This document shows positions 43,227 through 49,666 of a DNA stretch of 64,000 bases, in pieces. Numbering within the stretch: position 1 is the stretch's first letter; each line of letters begins with the position of its first letter. Both the position numbers and the translations under genes were made by a program. Below the pieces are notes generated by a model. It was not told the origin of the DNA, made no database searches, and saw nothing but the letters and a program-made list of their open reading frames with translations. Source of the stretch: an uncultured Opitutaceae bacterium (GTDB taxonomy: Bacteria > Verrucomicrobiota > Verrucomicrobiia > Opitutales > Opitutaceae). Where the stretch lies: positions 31,976-95,975 of the forward strand of contig CAITEC010000036.1 in NCBI GenBank assembly GCA_903891325.1. The letters are read 5' to 3'.

Positions 43227-43322
43227 GATTTTGGTGGATACGGGCGTTCCGTGTTCTTCTCGGATGGCCCAGGAGTCGGCCATATGACCCAAAATTGCGG
43301 GGAGGGACAACTCACAAAGTGG

Positions 43323-45407
43323 ATGTCGGGAGATTTCGTCGTGATCTTTGGGGACTTCCCGTCAAGGGTAAATCCCGTGCTTTCCCGGATCGGACCCAAA
43401 ACGACGGCGCTGATCAAGGCGGCGGTGATCACCCTGGCGGTCGCCTTCGTTTACGGCCGGGTGATGGGAGCCGGCTGGATCTGGGACGACGCCCTCGAAA
43501 TTACCGGCAGCCATGACGTCCGCTCCCCCGGCGGGCTGTGGAGCGCCTGGTTCTCCCCCTCCGGCTTCGATTACTTTCCGCTGAAGACCGACCTGCAGTG
43601 GCTGGAGTGGCACCTCTGGCAGTCCCGCCCGGCGGGCTATCACGCCGCCAACATCGTCGTTCACCTGGCGGGCGCACTGCTTCTTTGGCGCCTCCTTGGG
43701 AAGCTGGGGGTCCGGTTCGCCTGGCTGGGCGGGCTGCTCTTCGCCATCCATCCGCTGGCGGTCGAGTCGGTGGCTTGGGTTTCCGAGTTCAAGAACGTAC
43801 TGTCGCTGGCCTTCCTGCTGCTGGCGGCGGGGGCGTTTGTCGATTTTGACTCCGCCTGTGCCACGGCCCGATTGGCCGGGCCGGGCCGCGGCAACGCCGC
43901 CCGACGCGCGTACCTGGCGGCGCTTGCCTGGTTCCTCGCAGCAATGCTCTCAAAATCCTCGGTGGTCATGTTTCCCTTCTGCCTGCTTCTCCTGGCCTGG
44001 TGGCGGCGGGGGCGGATCGGCCGGAGGGACCTCCTCGCGAGCCTTCCTTTTTTCCTCGTGTCGCTGATCCTCGGACTTGTAACGATCTCGTTCCAGGCCC
44101 AGCGCGCCATCGTCGATCCGGGAAGCGTGGTGGAGGGACTGCCCGTCCGGCTGGCCGTGGCGGGGCGGGCGCTTGTCTTCTATTTTGGCAAGTGCGCGTG
44201 GCCCTTCGGCCTGCTCCCGATCTATCCGCGCTGGGCGGCCCCCGCACTCCTGCTGCCGGGGGCCCTGTGCTGGCTTGCCGCCGGGGCGGTGGCAGCGGCG
44301 CTCCTCATCTGGAACTTCCGATCAGCGCCGGGCGATGGCCCGCGCATCCCGATTCCGCGGCACATCCTGCTCGGATTGGGATTCTTCGTCATCAACCTCA
44401 TCCCGGTGCTCGGCTTTTTTCCGATGGCCTACCAGCGCATTAGCTGGGTCGCGGACCATTTCGCGTACCTGGCCCTGGCGGGAATGGCGGGGCTGGCGGC
44501 CGGGGGCGTGGGGACACTCCTCGATTCATCAAGCCAAATTGAACAGGAAGGCCGGGAAGAGCGGGAAGGAAAGGGCCTTCTCCGAACCCTTCCCGGACTT
44601 CCCGTTCTTCCTGTTCAATTCCGGTGGATTTATCCGGTTTTTGTCTCGGTGATAATCGCCGGTCTGGCCATCCAGAGCCGGTCCTACGCGCGCGTCTTCC
44701 AGGGCGAGAAATCGCTCTGGACCTACGAGCTCGAGCGCAACAAGGAGGCTTGGATCGGCTACAACAACCTGGGAATAGCGCTCCGGAAGGAGGGGCGGCG
44801 CTCCGAGGCGATCGCCGACTACGAGCAGTCGCTTCGACTCCGGCCCAATTTCGCCGAGGCCCACAACGACCTGGGTGTCGCCCTGGCGGAGGAGGGCAGG
44901 GCGGCCGAGGCGCTGGCGCACTACGAGCGGGCGATCCTGATCAAGCCGGACTTTGCCAGCGCCTACAACAACGAGGGCAACCTCCTCCTCAGCCTCGGCA
45001 GGATTGACGATGCCGTGGGCCGCTTTTCGCTGTCGCTGCGGCTCGATCCCGATGTCCCCGAGCCGCACAACAACCTCGGGAACGCGCTCGCCCGGAAGGG
45101 CCGGCTCGCCGAGGCGATCGCCCAGTACCGCGAGGCGCTGCGCATCGCGCCTGAATTTCCGGAGGCGATCAGCAACCTGGGGGCCACCCTGGCCAACTCC
45201 GGCCGGCTGGACGAGGCCATCGCGCAATTCCGGGAGCTGCTCAGGCTCCGGCCGGACTTTGCGGAGGGTCACAACAACCTCGGCGTCGCCCTGGGCCGCG
45301 CCGGCCGGATTCCGGAGGCGATCGCGGAATATCGCCTGGCGCTTCAAATCGATCCCGGCCTCAGGGAGGCGCGCGACAACCTCAAACGGCTGGGAGCGGG
45401 AAACTGA
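43323..45407 (+). CDS. TMTC-like membrane glycosyltransferase with TPR repeats, paralogue 1
   Basis: A protein of about 694 residues. The first half is a GT-C-like membrane domain with GAGWIWDDALEIT, where the acidic pair would be catalytic, and LLFAIHPLAVESVAWVSEFK, a stretch shared with eukaryotic TMTC O-mannosyltransferases and bacterial relatives. The second half holds about seven TPRs with the NNLG pattern (for example AWIGYNNLGIALRKEGRRSE). TPRs would bind protein acceptors; protein O-glycosylation is therefore inferred. Residues encoded by 44537-44620 come from an in-frame palindromic DNA element. ATG 43323 is uncertain; starts from 43251 to 43377 are open. It begins a four-gene unit. 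Confidence 0.82.
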   Translation: MSGDFVVIFGDFPSRVNPVLSRIGPKTTALIKAAVITLAVAFVYGRVMGAGWIWDDALEITGSHDVRSPGGLWSAWFSPSGFDYFPLKTDLQWLEWHLWQSRPAGYHAANIVVHLAGALLLWRLLGKLGVRFAWLGGLLFAIHPLAVESVAWVSEFKNVLSLAFLLLAAGAFVDFDSACATARLAGPGRGNAARRAYLAALAWFLAAMLSKSSVVMFPFCLLLLAWWRRGRIGRRDLLASLPFFLVSLILGLVTISFQAQRAIVDPGSVVEGLPVRLAVAGRALVFYFGKCAWPFGLLPIYPRWAAPALLLPGALCWLAAGAVAAALLIWNFRSAPGDGPRIPIPRHILLGLGFFVINLIPVLGFFPMAYQRISWVADHFAYLALAGMAGLAAGGVGTLLDSSSQIEQEGREEREGKGLLRTLPGLPVLPVQFRWIYPVFVSVIIAGLAIQSRSYARVFQGEKSLWTYELERNKEAWIGYNNLGIALRKEGRRSEAIADYEQSLRLRPNFAEAHNDLGVALAEEGRAAEALAHYERAILIKPDFASAYNNEGNLLLSLGRIDDAVGRFSLSLRLDPDVPEPHNNLGNALARKGRLAEAIAQYREALRIAPEFPEAISNLGATLANSGRLDEAIAQFRELLRLRPDFAEGHNNLGVALGRAGRIPEAIAEYRLALQIDPGLREARDNLKRLGAGN
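44537..44620. repeat. Coding palindromic element, copy 1
   Basis: An 84-bp inverted repeat inside TMTC-like paralogue 1. The outermost 14 bp are perfect: aattgaacaggaag (44537-44550) and its complement cttcctgttcaatt (44607-44620). The inner 20 bp of each arm match at 15 of 20 positions and are built of cgggaag units. The loop (44571-44586) has its own small palindrome. The length is 28 codons, so the frame is kept, giving a Glu/Arg then Leu/Pro-rich insert just before a membrane segment. A second copy lies in paralogue 2 at the same site; paralogue 3 lacks it. Confidence 0.85.
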
Positions 45408-45410
45408 CCG

Positions 45411-47633
45411 ATGGAAACCGGCGCCAGGCCAGCATCCGAACCGATTGGGCGTGCTGCGCTCAAGGGCTGTGTCATCGCGGGAGCGACTGCCCTGGTCTAC
45501 GCGCCGGCCCTGCGCGGAACCTGGTTCTGGGACGATCCCGCCGAAATCGTCGAGAACAGGGCGCTGCACACCCTGGCCGGGCTGAGGGACATCTGGGTCG
45601 CCCCGGACACCCCCGACTACTACCCGCTGAAGACCAGCTTGCAGTGGCTCCAGTGGCATGTCTGGGGTGACTCCGTCCTGGGGTATCACCTGACCAACGT
45701 TGGGCTTCACCTGCTGGGAGCCCTCCTGCTCTGGCGGGTCCTGGGCCGGCTCGGGGTGCGGCTCGCATGGCTGGGCGGGTTGATTTTCGCGATCCATCCC
45801 CTGGCGGTCGAGTCGGTGGCGTGGATATCAGAACTCAAGAACGTCCTTTCGCTCCCCTTCATGCTCCTGTCGTTCGAGGCATGGATCCGTTTTGACGAGG
45901 TCCGGGCCGAGCCTGCCGGAAAATGGGTTGGGCCGTTCACCGTCTCGCTGGCGTGGTTCGCGGCGGCCCTGCTGTCCAAGGGCTCGGTGGTCATGCTGCC
46001 GGTGGTCCTCCTGCTCTACTGCTGGTGGAAGCGAGGCAAGGTCACCGGGGCCGACGCAAGGTCGGCTGCGCCCTTCTTCGGGCTCTCGCTCCTCCTTGGC
46101 ATTGTGACGCTCCATTTCCAGGAATCCGTCGCCATGAAGGGAATCGTCGTCGTCCAGGGCGGTCTCCTATCGCGGCTCGCCGTGGCCGGCATGGCGGTCG
46201 CGTTTTATGCGGGCAAATTCGCGTGGCCCGCCGACCTGCTGCCGATTTATCCCCGATGGGCCGCGGATCCGCCGGAATTCGCACAATTCCTGCCCTGGGC
46301 GGGGATCGCCGCCGTCGCGGTGTTCCTGTGCAGGTGGAGCGCCCTCGCCGGGCCGGGATCGCGGCTGCCGCGGCACATCGCATTCGGGCTGGGATTTTTC
46401 TTCATCAACCTGCTCCCGGTCCTCGGCTTCATCCCGATGTCCTACCTGCGGATCTCATGGGTTGCCGACCATTTCACGTATATGCCGATGATCGGGCTCA
46501 TCGGGCTGGCGGCCGCAGGAATCGGGACTGTACTCGATCCAAGACATTATTTTAAACAGGAAGATCGGGAGGGCCGGGAAGGGTCCAATAATGGCGGTAC
46601 CCTTTCCGTTCTTCCCGGTCTTCCTGTTCAAATCCGGATTTCCATTGCCCTTCTGTTGACCATCGCGATTGGCGCCCTCGGCGTTGAAAGCCGCGGGCAC
46701 GCGGCGATCTTCCGCAGCGAGAAGGATGCGTGGACCTACACGCTTTCCCGGAACCCGGACGCATGGCTCGCGCACAACAACATCAGCAACATCTACCTGA
46801 ACGAGGGGAGGGAGGCCGAGGCCATGGGGGAGATCGACGCGGCCTTGCGGATCAAGCCGGACTTCGCGGAGGCGCACAACAACCGGGGCAACATCCTGCT
46901 GAAAAACGGGAGGGCGGAGGAGGCGCGGCGCGAGTTTGAGGCCGCCGTGCGCTTCCGGCCCGACTACGCCGAGGCGATCAACGGCCTGGGCAATTATTAC
47001 CTGAAGACGGACCGCGCGGCCGAGGCGCTCGCGCTCTACCGGAAGGCGTACGGATTGAAGCCGGACTACACAAACTGCCTGGACAACGAGGGCGCGGCGC
47101 TGGAAAAACTCGGCCGCAACGACGAGGCCATCTCGGTTTATCGGAGGGTCATCGGGGATATGCCGGGCTTCGCGGGCGCCCATTACAACCTCGGGATCGC
47201 GCTGGCCAACGCGGGCCGGTACCCGGAGGCGGCTGCGCAGTACGCGGAGGCCGTCCGGCTTTCGCCCGGACTGGCCGAGGCGGAGAACAACCTGGGAAAC
47301 GCCCTCGCGGCTATGAACCGTCCCGCCGAGGCGATCGTCCACTACGAGCGTGCGATCAAGGCCAATCCCGGCTCCTTCGAGGCGCACAACAACCTGGGCA
47401 ACTCCTTCTTCAACATCCGCCGCTTCGCCGAGGCGATCGGGCAGTACCGGGAGGCGATCCGGCTCAATCCCGGATATGTCCCGGTTCGCGTCACCCTGGC
47501 GGTGACGCTGAAGGCGGTCGGTCGCGAGGGGGATGCCCGGGCGCAGCTCAGGGATGCGCTGCGGCTTGATCCGGACAATGCGTTCATCCGGGCCAGCCTG
47601 GGCCTTCCGAAGCCGGGCCCCCAAAAGCGGTGA
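45411..47633 (+). CDS. TMTC-like membrane glycosyltransferase with TPR repeats, paralogue 2
   Basis: A 740-residue paralogue of the genes on either side. The membrane half has GTWFWDDPAEIVENRAL, YYPLKTSLQWLQWHVWGDSV and LIFAIHPLAVESVAWISELK. The TPR half has about nine repeats (for example FAEAHNNRGNILLKNGRAEE, FEAHNNLGNSFFNIRRFAEA), two more than paralogue 1. The acidic WDD and HPLAVESVAW elements are kept, so it should be active if the family is. The ATG at 45411 lies 3 bp after the stop of paralogue 1, and the 3' end overlaps paralogue 3 by 4 bp. It carries the second coding palindrome at 46551-46632. Confidence 0.84.
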   Translation: METGARPASEPIGRAALKGCVIAGATALVYAPALRGTWFWDDPAEIVENRALHTLAGLRDIWVAPDTPDYYPLKTSLQWLQWHVWGDSVLGYHLTNVGLHLLGALLLWRVLGRLGVRLAWLGGLIFAIHPLAVESVAWISELKNVLSLPFMLLSFEAWIRFDEVRAEPAGKWVGPFTVSLAWFAAALLSKGSVVMLPVVLLLYCWWKRGKVTGADARSAAPFFGLSLLLGIVTLHFQESVAMKGIVVVQGGLLSRLAVAGMAVAFYAGKFAWPADLLPIYPRWAADPPEFAQFLPWAGIAAVAVFLCRWSALAGPGSRLPRHIAFGLGFFFINLLPVLGFIPMSYLRISWVADHFTYMPMIGLIGLAAAGIGTVLDPRHYFKQEDREGREGSNNGGTLSVLPGLPVQIRISIALLLTIAIGALGVESRGHAAIFRSEKDAWTYTLSRNPDAWLAHNNISNIYLNEGREAEAMGEIDAALRIKPDFAEAHNNRGNILLKNGRAEEARREFEAAVRFRPDYAEAINGLGNYYLKTDRAAEALALYRKAYGLKPDYTNCLDNEGAALEKLGRNDEAISVYRRVIGDMPGFAGAHYNLGIALANAGRYPEAAAQYAEAVRLSPGLAEAENNLGNALAAMNRPAEAIVHYERAIKANPGSFEAHNNLGNSFFNIRRFAEAIGQYREAIRLNPGYVPVRVTLAVTLKAVGREGDARAQLRDALRLDPDNAFIRASLGLPKPGPQKR
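46551..46632. repeat. Coding palindromic element, copy 2
   Basis: An inverted repeat of about 82 bp in TMTC-like paralogue 2. The outer arms are tttaaacaggaag (46551-46563) and cttcctgttcaaa (46620-46632), with 12 of 13 pairs; the inner 20 bp pair at 15 of 20. It shares the acaggaag ... cttcctgt ends and cgggaag units with copy 1 but has a different loop. It lies at the same protein position, between the last two membrane segments. The encoded insert is FKQEDREGREGSNNGG followed by TLSVLPGLPV, read in frame. Confidence 0.83.
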
Positions 47634-49666
47634 AGACACCCGCGATACCCGGCATCGGCAGGCTGCTCAAGGCGGCGGGCATCATCGGGGCGGGGTGCCT
47701 TGTGTACCTGCCCGTGCTCCACGGGGGATGGGTCTGGGACGACGATGTCGAGATCACGGGAAACACGAGCCTGCGGGCGCCGGGCGCGCTCTGGCGAATG
47801 TGGTTTCACCCCTGGCAGGCCGACTATCTCCCGGTGAAGTCCCTCCTTCAGTGGATCCAGTGGAATCTCTGGGGCGAGCATCCCTCGGGCTACCACGTGA
47901 CCAACGCCTGCCTTCACATCGTGAGCGCGCTCCTGCTCTGGCGGCTTCTGGGCAGGCTTGGGGTCCGCTTCGCCTGGCTCGGCGGGTTGATCTTCGCCGT
48001 CCATCCCCTCGCCGTCGAGTCGGTCGCATGGATTTCGGAGCTGAAAAACGCCCTGTCGCTTCCCCTCCTGCTGCTCGCCTTCGACGCGTACCTGGACTGG
48101 GACGGATCCGGGCCGGCGGCGGGGGGGCGCGCGCGGCGACGGTATGTGGCGTCGCTGCTCTGGTTCGCCGCGGCGCTGCTTTCCAAGGGCTCGGTCGTCA
48201 TGATGCCGGTCATCCTCCTGCTCTATTGCTGGTGGCGACGGGGCCGCCTGTCGTCGGGCGATTTCCGGGCCGCAGCCCCCTTCCTCGCGCTCTCCCTGGC
48301 CGCCGGCATCGTGACGATCCGCTTCCAGTTGCACCGGGCGATGGCCGGCGAGGCCATCGCGATCGGGGGCGCGGCCTCGCGGATGGCCGGGGCGGGGCTT
48401 GCGGCCGTGTTCTACCTCTGGAAATCGGTGATCCCATCCGGGCTGATGCCAATCTACCCGCGCTGGGCAATCGACCCGCCGGCCGTCTGGCAATTCTGGC
48501 CCTGGGCGGGACTCGCCGCGGCGGCGGCGATGCTCCTCGCCTGGGGGCGCACGTCGCCCGGCCGGGCGCGGACGGCGCGCACCATCGCCTTCGGCTTCGG
48601 GTTCTTCCTGGTCAATCTCCTGCCCGTCCTGGGTTTTGTCCCGATGTCGATCCTTCGGCTGACCCTGGTGGCCGACCACCTGGCCTACCTGCCCCTCGTG
48701 GGGCTGGTCGGGCTCGCGGCGGCCGGCATTGGATCCGGTGAGACCTGGCTCCGCGGGCGCGGGGCCCCGGGGAATGCCGCGGTTCCCTCGCTTTGGATCA
48801 TCGTTGCTGCGGCAATCGCCGCATTCGCGGCCGGGGCCAGGGCGTACGCGGCGGTCTATTCGGACGCGGCGCGTCTGTGGACCTACGAGGTGTCGCGCTA
48901 TCCCGCGGCGTGGGCCGCGCACAACAACCTGGGGAACGCCTTCATGGACGCGGAGCGGGTGGCCGACGCGCAGGCCCAGTATGAGACGGCGCTGAAGATC
49001 CGGCCCGACTACGTCGAGGCCTGCAACAACCTGGCGAACATCTATTCGAAAACGGGCCGGCTCGCGGAGGCCGCCGTCCTCTATCACAGGGCCCTGGGGC
49101 TGAAGCCGGACTACCCCCAGGCCCGCAACGGGCTGGGGAACCTCCTGTCCCAGGAGGGCGACCTGCGGGGCTCGATGGAGCAGCTTTCCCTGGCGATCCG
49201 ATACAGCCCGGACATGGCCGCCGCCTACAACAACATGGGAAACACCTACTGCCTGATGGGCCGTTATGCCGAGGCGGAGGGCTACATCAGGAAGGCCCTG
49301 GAGATCAGCCCCAACGAACCGGAGGCGCACAACAACCTTGGGAACGTCTATGTTCGCACGGGACGCGCCGACATCGCCATGGGAGAGTACAGGACGGCGC
49401 TGCGGCTGAAGCCGGACTTTGTCGAGGCGGTGAACAATATCGGCAACGTCCAGATGATGGCCGGCCGGCTGCAGGAGGCCTTTGACACCTTCAGCCTGGC
49501 CCTCCGGATCCGGCCGGGCTACGCCGAGGCGCTGTTCAACCGCGGACTGGTGCTCCTGGCGGCCGGCCGGCGGGATGACGCAGCCACCCAGTTCAGACAG
49601 GCGTTGCAATCGCGCCCCGACTTCGCGCAGGCTCGCGCCAAGTTGGAACTTCTTGAAAAGAAATAG
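47630..49666 (+). CDS. TMTC-like membrane glycosyltransferase with TPR repeats, paralogue 3
   Basis: A 678-residue protein with the same layout: GGWVWDDDVEITGNTSL, YLPVKSLLQWIQWNLWGEHP and LIFAVHPLAVESVAWISELK in the membrane half. About seven TPRs follow (for example AWAAHNNLGNAFMDAERVAD, NEPEAHNNLGNVYVRTGRAD). The region that holds the palindromic insert in paralogues 1 and 2 is shorter here (ETWLRGRGAPGNAAVPSLW) and has no palindrome. GTG 47630 overlaps the stop of paralogue 2 by 4 bp. One base separates its TAG stop from the GTG of the GH63-type gene, which suggests coupled translation. Confidence 0.84.
   Translation: MKTPAIPGIGRLLKAAGIIGAGCLVYLPVLHGGWVWDDDVEITGNTSLRAPGALWRMWFHPWQADYLPVKSLLQWIQWNLWGEHPSGYHVTNACLHIVSALLLWRLLGRLGVRFAWLGGLIFAVHPLAVESVAWISELKNALSLPLLLLAFDAYLDWDGSGPAAGGRARRRYVASLLWFAAALLSKGSVVMMPVILLLYCWWRRGRLSSGDFRAAAPFLALSLAAGIVTIRFQLHRAMAGEAIAIGGAASRMAGAGLAAVFYLWKSVIPSGLMPIYPRWAIDPPAVWQFWPWAGLAAAAAMLLAWGRTSPGRARTARTIAFGFGFFLVNLLPVLGFVPMSILRLTLVADHLAYLPLVGLVGLAAAGIGSGETWLRGRGAPGNAAVPSLWIIVAAAIAAFAAGARAYAAVYSDAARLWTYEVSRYPAAWAAHNNLGNAFMDAERVADAQAQYETALKIRPDYVEACNNLANIYSKTGRLAEAAVLYHRALGLKPDYPQARNGLGNLLSQEGDLRGSMEQLSLAIRYSPDMAAAYNNMGNTYCLMGRYAEAEGYIRKALEISPNEPEAHNNLGNVYVRTGRADIAMGEYRTALRLKPDFVEAVNNIGNVQMMAGRLQEAFDTFSLALRIRPGYAEALFNRGLVLLAAGRRDDAATQFRQALQSRPDFAQARAKLELLEKK

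Follow-up and report, generated by a model that had tools for sequence, protein, structure and literature searches.

A dispersed palindromic repeat, probably mobile, that likely inserted separately and in frame into one loop of TPR proteins in an Opitutaceae bacterium

Introduction

That palindromic repeats can lie in frame within bacterial genes is established for Rickettsia and O. terrae. The Rickettsia RPE and Wolbachia WPE are reported as palindromic repeats that lie in exposed regions within ORFs that stay unbroken (PMC3767692, PMC10969869), and different palindromes are reported in the same gene region (PMC3767692). A survey of GTAG repeats describes in-frame REPs in O. terrae, where the majority of inserts are dimers or groups coding for 20-30 residues, and names this species as having the most intragenic GTAG repeats among those surveyed (PMC3733652). 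Intragenic small repeats have also been reported in enterobacteria (PMC2759123).

Here we describe a repeat family in an uncultured Opitutaceae bacterium, starting from two palindromes in a window of 64,000 nucleotides (C36:31976-95975 of genome G000, 3.29 Mb in 140 contigs). An earlier note on this DNA had likened them to the Rickettsia elements, and the likeness holds for behaviour: 5 of the 46 catalogued sites are palindromic repeats read in frame within genes that remain unbroken. Unlike RPE, which occupy many unrelated genes, all five in-gene sites fall in one protein family, and the full in-gene copies span 72-75 nt (from ACAG to CTGT) in contrast to about 100-150 nt for RPE. The O. terrae REPs carry GTAG at one end and enter varied genes such as uvrA, whereas the present family is tag-less and confined, within genes, to a single gene family. 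With the REPIN/RAYT system, as described (PMC3116915), it shares an inverted doublet that forms a hairpin and is dispersed and mostly extragenic; it differs in that no RAYT partner was found and in that its arm is composed of 9-nt units with free spacers. None of the matches listed in our literature searches is a paper on this repeat. What is new is a tag-less family of 9-nt units, concentrated in one gene family at recurrent loops, together with insert-free sister genes and an insert-free orthologue for comparison, and an IS110-family element that targets the repeat at a fixed point.

Results

Two palindromes in tandem TPR paralogues

Three tandem genes on the forward strand encode related proteins: paralogue 1 (43251..45407), whose database copy P0010 starts 11 residues later, paralogue 2 (45411..47633) and paralogue 3 (47630..49666). 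All three combine a membrane domain with TPR repeats, and paralogues 1 and 2 carry the insert. TPR repeats follow the membrane domain according to Pfam and the AlphaFold2 model of paralogue 2, and the membrane domain was judged from the model and hydrophobic stretches. Searches of solved structures returned TPR or other helical-repeat chains among the best 60 of 342 matches by sequence and the best 50 of 1512 by fold. Pfam gave no match to a glycosyltransferase domain in the three window proteins; PF13231, which we take to be a PMT-type domain, is precomputed for some homologues, and some carry the source name 'protein O-mannosyl-transferase'.

As the earlier note had claimed, both palindromes are translated in frame in the stretch that separates the last two predicted membrane helices, with limits 1-2 nt inside those first given; their hosts are two tandem TPR proteins. 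Palindromic element 1 (44539..44618, 80 nt, no strand assigned) reads TTGAACAGG...CCTGTTCAA and encodes approximately EQEGREEREGKGLLRTLPGLPVLPVQ in paralogue 1. Its left arm (44539..44569, plus strand) has the form ACAGGAAG NN CGGGAAG NN CGGGAAG, that is, 7-nt units with 2 free nucleotides between them, and its right arm (44588..44618, minus strand) is inverted. Palindromic element 2 (46552..46631, 80 nt, no strand assigned) reads TTAAACAGG...CCTGTTCAA and encodes approximately KQEDREGREGSNNGGTLSVLPGLPVQ in paralogue 2. The distance from ACAG to CTGT is 72 nt in both, the limits of the inserts being approximate at a protein identity of about 50%. The two elements are only 79% identical, align best on the reverse strand and have different centres. 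Their arms are 47 and 34 nt long, with 79% and 82% complementarity. When folded in silico as single-stranded DNA, they gave -27.6 and -25.6 kcal/mol (z -5.98 and -6.19), and none of 200 dinucleotide shuffles of either folded as well. The block ACAGGAAG occurs 6 times in the window against 0.97 expected, and 4 of the 6 occurrences lie within elements 1 and 2. Rfam found nothing in the window at gathering score; two sub-threshold Rfam microRNA models in 5 loci were taken as chance hairpin matches.

The open frames that hold elements 1 and 2 run for 718 and 740 codons, and under a codon model both inserts score unlike coding DNA of their own genome. Paralogue 3 lacks the palindrome, as had been claimed, and its loop is indeed shorter, by 20 residues (30 versus 50 in paralogues 1 and 2) rather than the 18 or so first estimated. 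In the AlphaFold2 model of paralogue 2, residues 383-405 form a coil between helices 377-382 and 406-435, after which the TPR part begins; pLDDT falls below 50 at residues 391-399 against a mean of 92.8. The likely effect of the insert is a longer loop in a protein that stays intact. Its predicted disorder aside, it probably adds no new functional part and serves as near-neutral filler.

Copies of the repeat in its own genome

The earlier note had proposed a search of the full genome for further copies, and these were found. The arm pattern gave 126 matches at two or fewer mismatches, against 50 for the reversed pattern, and 78 against 2 at one or none. From the matches listed, those with at most one mismatch were catalogued and L093 was dropped as likely chance, leaving 46 sites, 32 of them with both ends intact; degenerate copies may be missing from this catalogue. 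Intact copies range from 71 to 149 nt, clustering at 139-149, 99-112 and 71-75 nt. The arm consensus is ACAGGAAG NN CGGGAAG NN CGG(A/G)AAG, in which conservation per position is 94-100% in the first two blocks and 50-94% in the third, the dinucleotides between blocks are freer, and conservation beyond the ends fades after about 10-15 nt. The first dinucleotide was equal in both arms of a copy in 5 of 32 cases, against 6.9 expected if the two were independent, indicating that base pairing does not constrain these positions. In silico folding of six copies as hairpins gave z values from -2.4 to -8.4. The left 32 nt of the paralogue 1 element are identical to those of a copy at C21.

Like MITEs, the repeat has terminal inverted repeats. 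Flank words of the 32 intact copies, compared at offsets 0-7, showed no excess of matches over shuffled pairs that would suggest a target-site duplication. By eye, some copies (at L086, L204 and L211) have a second, unrelated inverted repeat inside or beside them and look as if other elements land in the hairpin.

Copies inside and outside genes

A count of copies inside and outside genes, also proposed in the earlier note, gave 5 against 41. The in-gene sites comprise three full copies, namely the two in the window and one of 75 nt in the same loop of a paralogue on C65, and two half copies, which are single arms in paralogues on C75. All five lie in two loops of one paralogous family (28 genes examined) and share one frame. 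The membrane/TPR family is greatly expanded in this genome and in some others of the same genus, often in tandem. If 2,050 nt per gene is assumed, the 28 paralogues make up about 1.7% of the genome, and at least 5 of 46 sites would fall there with P 0.0012. The full in-gene copies are 72, 72 and 75 nt long, whereas a length of at most 75 nt is found in only 4 of the 32 copies with intact ends (P 0.0008, a value that would rise slightly with L078, a fifth short copy of 67 nt outside genes that has one end altered and is not among the 32). The notion of a mobile element tolerated at coding sites thus stands in a narrow sense: such sites are occupied, at 5 of 46 positions, in one protein family, and the three full copies belong to the shortest size class.

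Copies were judged to lie outside genes when none of the frames through them resembled a gene that is coding both before and after the copy. Pfam was used for gene calling because opposite-strand shadow frames confuse codon models, and it was run on some of the 41 sites. It gave no match in 10 open frames through other copies of this genome, including that of L067, where a long open frame scores as coding on both sides under the codon model; this may be a sixth in-gene copy. Of 20 frames through copies in other genomes, 11 had no Pfam match and 7 had the copy upstream of the first domain. In the remaining two (L212 and L213) the copy lies inside or among Pfam domains, and these, from genomes with a single match, were taken as chance. 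Several copies were seen by eye just upstream of starts that we take to resemble those of secA, rfbA and others. On the assumption that about 88% of the genome is genic, random insertion at 46 sites would strike a gene some 40 times, so that copies appear to be kept out of genes by selection or targeting.

Distribution across genomes

Of the 252 genomes in the family, 12 have exact matches to the core: 56 in the genome studied, 51 in G312 (g117), 1-33 in each of nine g7 genomes (33, 28, 13 and 12 in four of them) and one in a single further genome. None was found in the 12 same-genus genomes searched. A slightly shorter pattern with at most one mismatch gave 0-4 matches in each of these (1-4 in 10 of the 12), against 0-6 for the reversed pattern; one of these matches, in G004, is exact but single-armed. 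Across the order, with at most one mismatch, 12 of 273 genomes matched, namely our own, nine of one other family (f20), and two with a single match that was taken as chance. This patchy distribution suggests horizontal spread or repeated loss.

In other carriers of the same family, 12 of the 13 distinct two-armed copies read were 60-76 nt long and one was 189 nt; f20 copies read ranged from 60 to 252 nt. By these lengths the short class, which is the one seen in genes, has the look of the core form, and the 148-nt class that of a derivative that arose locally. At L289 (G489:C146, in another genome of Opitutaceae type), a stretch of 19 kb contains ten copies, all in the same orientation and some in longer repeated units, and the small genes between them resemble toxin-antitoxin pairs by eye.

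Carriers and their insert-free relatives

A tree was calculated from membrane domains (70 of 77 found) cut before the insert, in an analysis whose bootstrap had not settled. In it the full carriers fall into three separate clades, and each has an insert-free gene as its sister: paralogue 2 with paralogue 3 (98/82) and the C65 gene with a C15 gene (100/95), both starred, and paralogue 1 with a C40 gene (93/87), below the tool's starred level. The comparison of orthologues with and without the insert, another check named earlier, was made at the protein level. P0043, an orthologue of paralogue 1 (80.6% identical), has a loop of 21 rather than 50 residues and no arm-coded peptide, judging from the protein only. 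P0007, 82% identical to paralogue 3, has no insert, and P0001, an orthologue of paralogue 2 (93% identical), has it (again as seen in the protein). P0046, from another organism, contains LNRKGGKNGK...SFPFFPPFLFN at the same loop, which corresponds, at the protein level, to the repeat read in the other open frame. In six carrier genomes searched, the best match to P0046 had E 1.3e-52.

Separate insertions fit better than one ancestral insertion because the carriers lie in different clades and P0043 lacks the insert. The earlier note had left two options. The dispersed family, its patchy spread and the three carrier clades with insert-free sisters support the first, a mobile element tolerated in coding sequence; an insert predating the duplication and lost in paralogue 3 runs against those same clades and against P0043.

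Recurrent landing loops

Among 263 family proteins we found 48 inserts of at least 14 residues, all at exactly three positions of a seven-sequence profile: 161 (26 inserts), 310 (9) and 379 (13). Two rows of this survey are duplicate entries of our own genes, and one of the profile sequences carries an insert of its own at 161. The full copies lie in the loop at position 379, and the C75 half copies in that at 161. Other homologues carry unrelated repeat-like peptides in the same three loops. Different loops have 76 six-residue peptides in common, compared with a mean of 35.4 and a maximum of 56 in 200 shuffles, many of the 76 being plain hydrophobic words. Common runs that are not of this plain kind include RWSELP...FPMKRI...GNPLHLQS (161, 310), GTPALLW (161, 379) and EQEGRE (161, 379). 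EQEGRE is the only one of the three traced here to a palindromic repeat; we infer that the RWSELP and GTPALLW runs are repeat-derived. The peptide RWSELP..FGSD..FPMKRI.GNPLHLQS..ARSG.HAPP occurs in loops of three homologues (P0002, P0044 and P0026), two of which contain it twice; it resembles a further repeat read in frame.

Discussion

On the reading that we consider probable, the two window palindromes are copies of a dispersed repeat with a predicted hairpin fold, likely mobile but non-autonomous, and each likely entered the loop between the final two predicted membrane helices of its TPR protein by a separate insertion, adding about 24-27 residues in frame. We infer movement of the repeat from its distribution. 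It would be moved in trans by some enzyme, probably by way of the folded DNA hairpin, and might insert more or less anywhere, with selection acting afterwards. Copies that break genes would likely be removed, leaving most survivors between genes, and survival within a gene would likely need a kept frame, a frame free of stops and a flexible loop. The core repeat suits in-gene survival because its 9-nt units (7 fixed and 2 free nucleotides) equal three codons. Points against this account are that neither a target-site duplication nor a mover was found, that two of the five in-gene copies are single arms, and that chance alone would seldom give one common frame in all five.

The shared position of the inserts could have another origin. 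A single insertion that predates the split of the paralogues, and that three genes retained while the others lost it, would place three full copies at the same loop and in the same frame of one gene family. We consider this quite improbable: with carriers in three clades beside insert-free sisters it needs at least three losses, the arms still match the genome-wide family (the 32 nt identical to C21) though the proteins are about 50% identical, the stretches between the arms are unlike, and P0043 is 81% identical and free of the insert. Gene conversion, by which one insertion would have been copied between paralogues, draws on the adjacency of paralogues 1 and 2 and on a family that is large and partly tandem. 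It is nevertheless unlikely in view of the 79% identity of elements 1 and 2, best on the reverse strand, and of their differing centres; moreover, the third carrier (C65) is on another contig and the tree built from pre-insert sequence separates all three. That the inserts are kept because the added peptide is useful would agree with the single frame in all five own copies and with an insert peptide that is the same in paralogue 2 and P0001, proteins which differ by 7% overall. P0046, however, reads another frame and so has a different peptide, the insert is predicted to be disordered, and unrelated peptides occupy that loop in other homologues, all of which makes usefulness an improbable reason.

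As for the nature of the repeat, its inverted arms, predicted hairpin and mostly intergenic copies are also those of a REPIN, a pair of inverted REPs that a RAYT transposase moves. There are 6 Y1_Tnp genes in the genome, one of which, when scanned against NCBIfam, scored 50.7 of 80 bits with the REP-transposase model, below the cut-off. Yet only 1 of the 6 Y1 loci has an arm nearby (at two or fewer mismatches), in a truncated copy, with a 3-mismatch match at another; in f20, 0 of 22 Y1_Tnp loci have an arm at two or fewer mismatches and 1 of 22 at three. G077 and G062 have 32 and 5 arm matches and no Y1_Tnp gene at E 0.001. Since, in addition, the arm consensus starts TTGAACAGG and neither it nor the flank consensus has a GTAG or CGTC tag, a REPIN is an unlikely identification. 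Integron attC sites were considered on account of the AAC...GTT ends and the repeat array in G489; the hairpin form and variable centre would also agree, and G312 encodes an integron integrase (353.6 bits; G312:C11, above the curated cut-off). The boxes of attC read RYYYAAC and GTTRRRY, and none of the 32 intact copies fits these rules at either end. Three integrase-type loci scanned (L294, L295 and L301) have no arm at three or fewer mismatches, and in the genome studied the 46 sites are dispersed and none of 10 integron integrase matches exceeds the curated cut-off. An attC origin is thus hardly credible.

Returning to a dispersed repeat with separate insertions, we tentatively entertain a broader possibility, which we hold at somewhat under even chances. 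The family might represent an undescribed class of hairpin mobile DNA, made of 9-nt, three-codon units and spreading without RAYT between Opitutales lineages, which together with unrelated repeats keeps entering the same three loops in a single expanded family of membrane-glycosyltransferase-like proteins. If so, mobile DNA would repeatedly gain access to protein sequence through those three loops. One loop took the same repeat in three paralogues and, by protein, in another organism, in two frames, and took unrelated repeat-like peptides in other homologues. Insert-free sisters, a close orthologue likewise without the insert, and repeated hits at one site make a natural experiment on mobile DNA becoming protein.

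Transposase and integrase genes, or pieces of them, were also noted in these genomes. On C110 of the genome studied (L061), an arm at 1347-1364 belongs to a truncated repeat copy that is followed, about 100 nt on, by a Y1_Tnp gene (1468-2463); ahead of this gene lie two AAAAGGGGTCA motifs, which may be a REP of its own. In G106, pieces matching integron integrase lie in separate frames at C4:585382-586180 and C5:567071-567618. A simple word search for an IS110 guide match to the palindrome gave one 7-nt word, not above shuffles. At positions 1-1254 of C52 (L246), an IS110-family element (NF033542, 185 bits) interrupts the repeat at CTT^CCTGTTCA. Its left junction recurs in repeat copies at four contig ends (L105, L085, L089 and L101), and on C52 the right junction is followed by CCTGTTCA. 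The IS110-family element thus sits at one fixed point in these palindromes, as IS621 is reported to do in REP elements (PMC11208160), the difference being that the target here is the present repeat.
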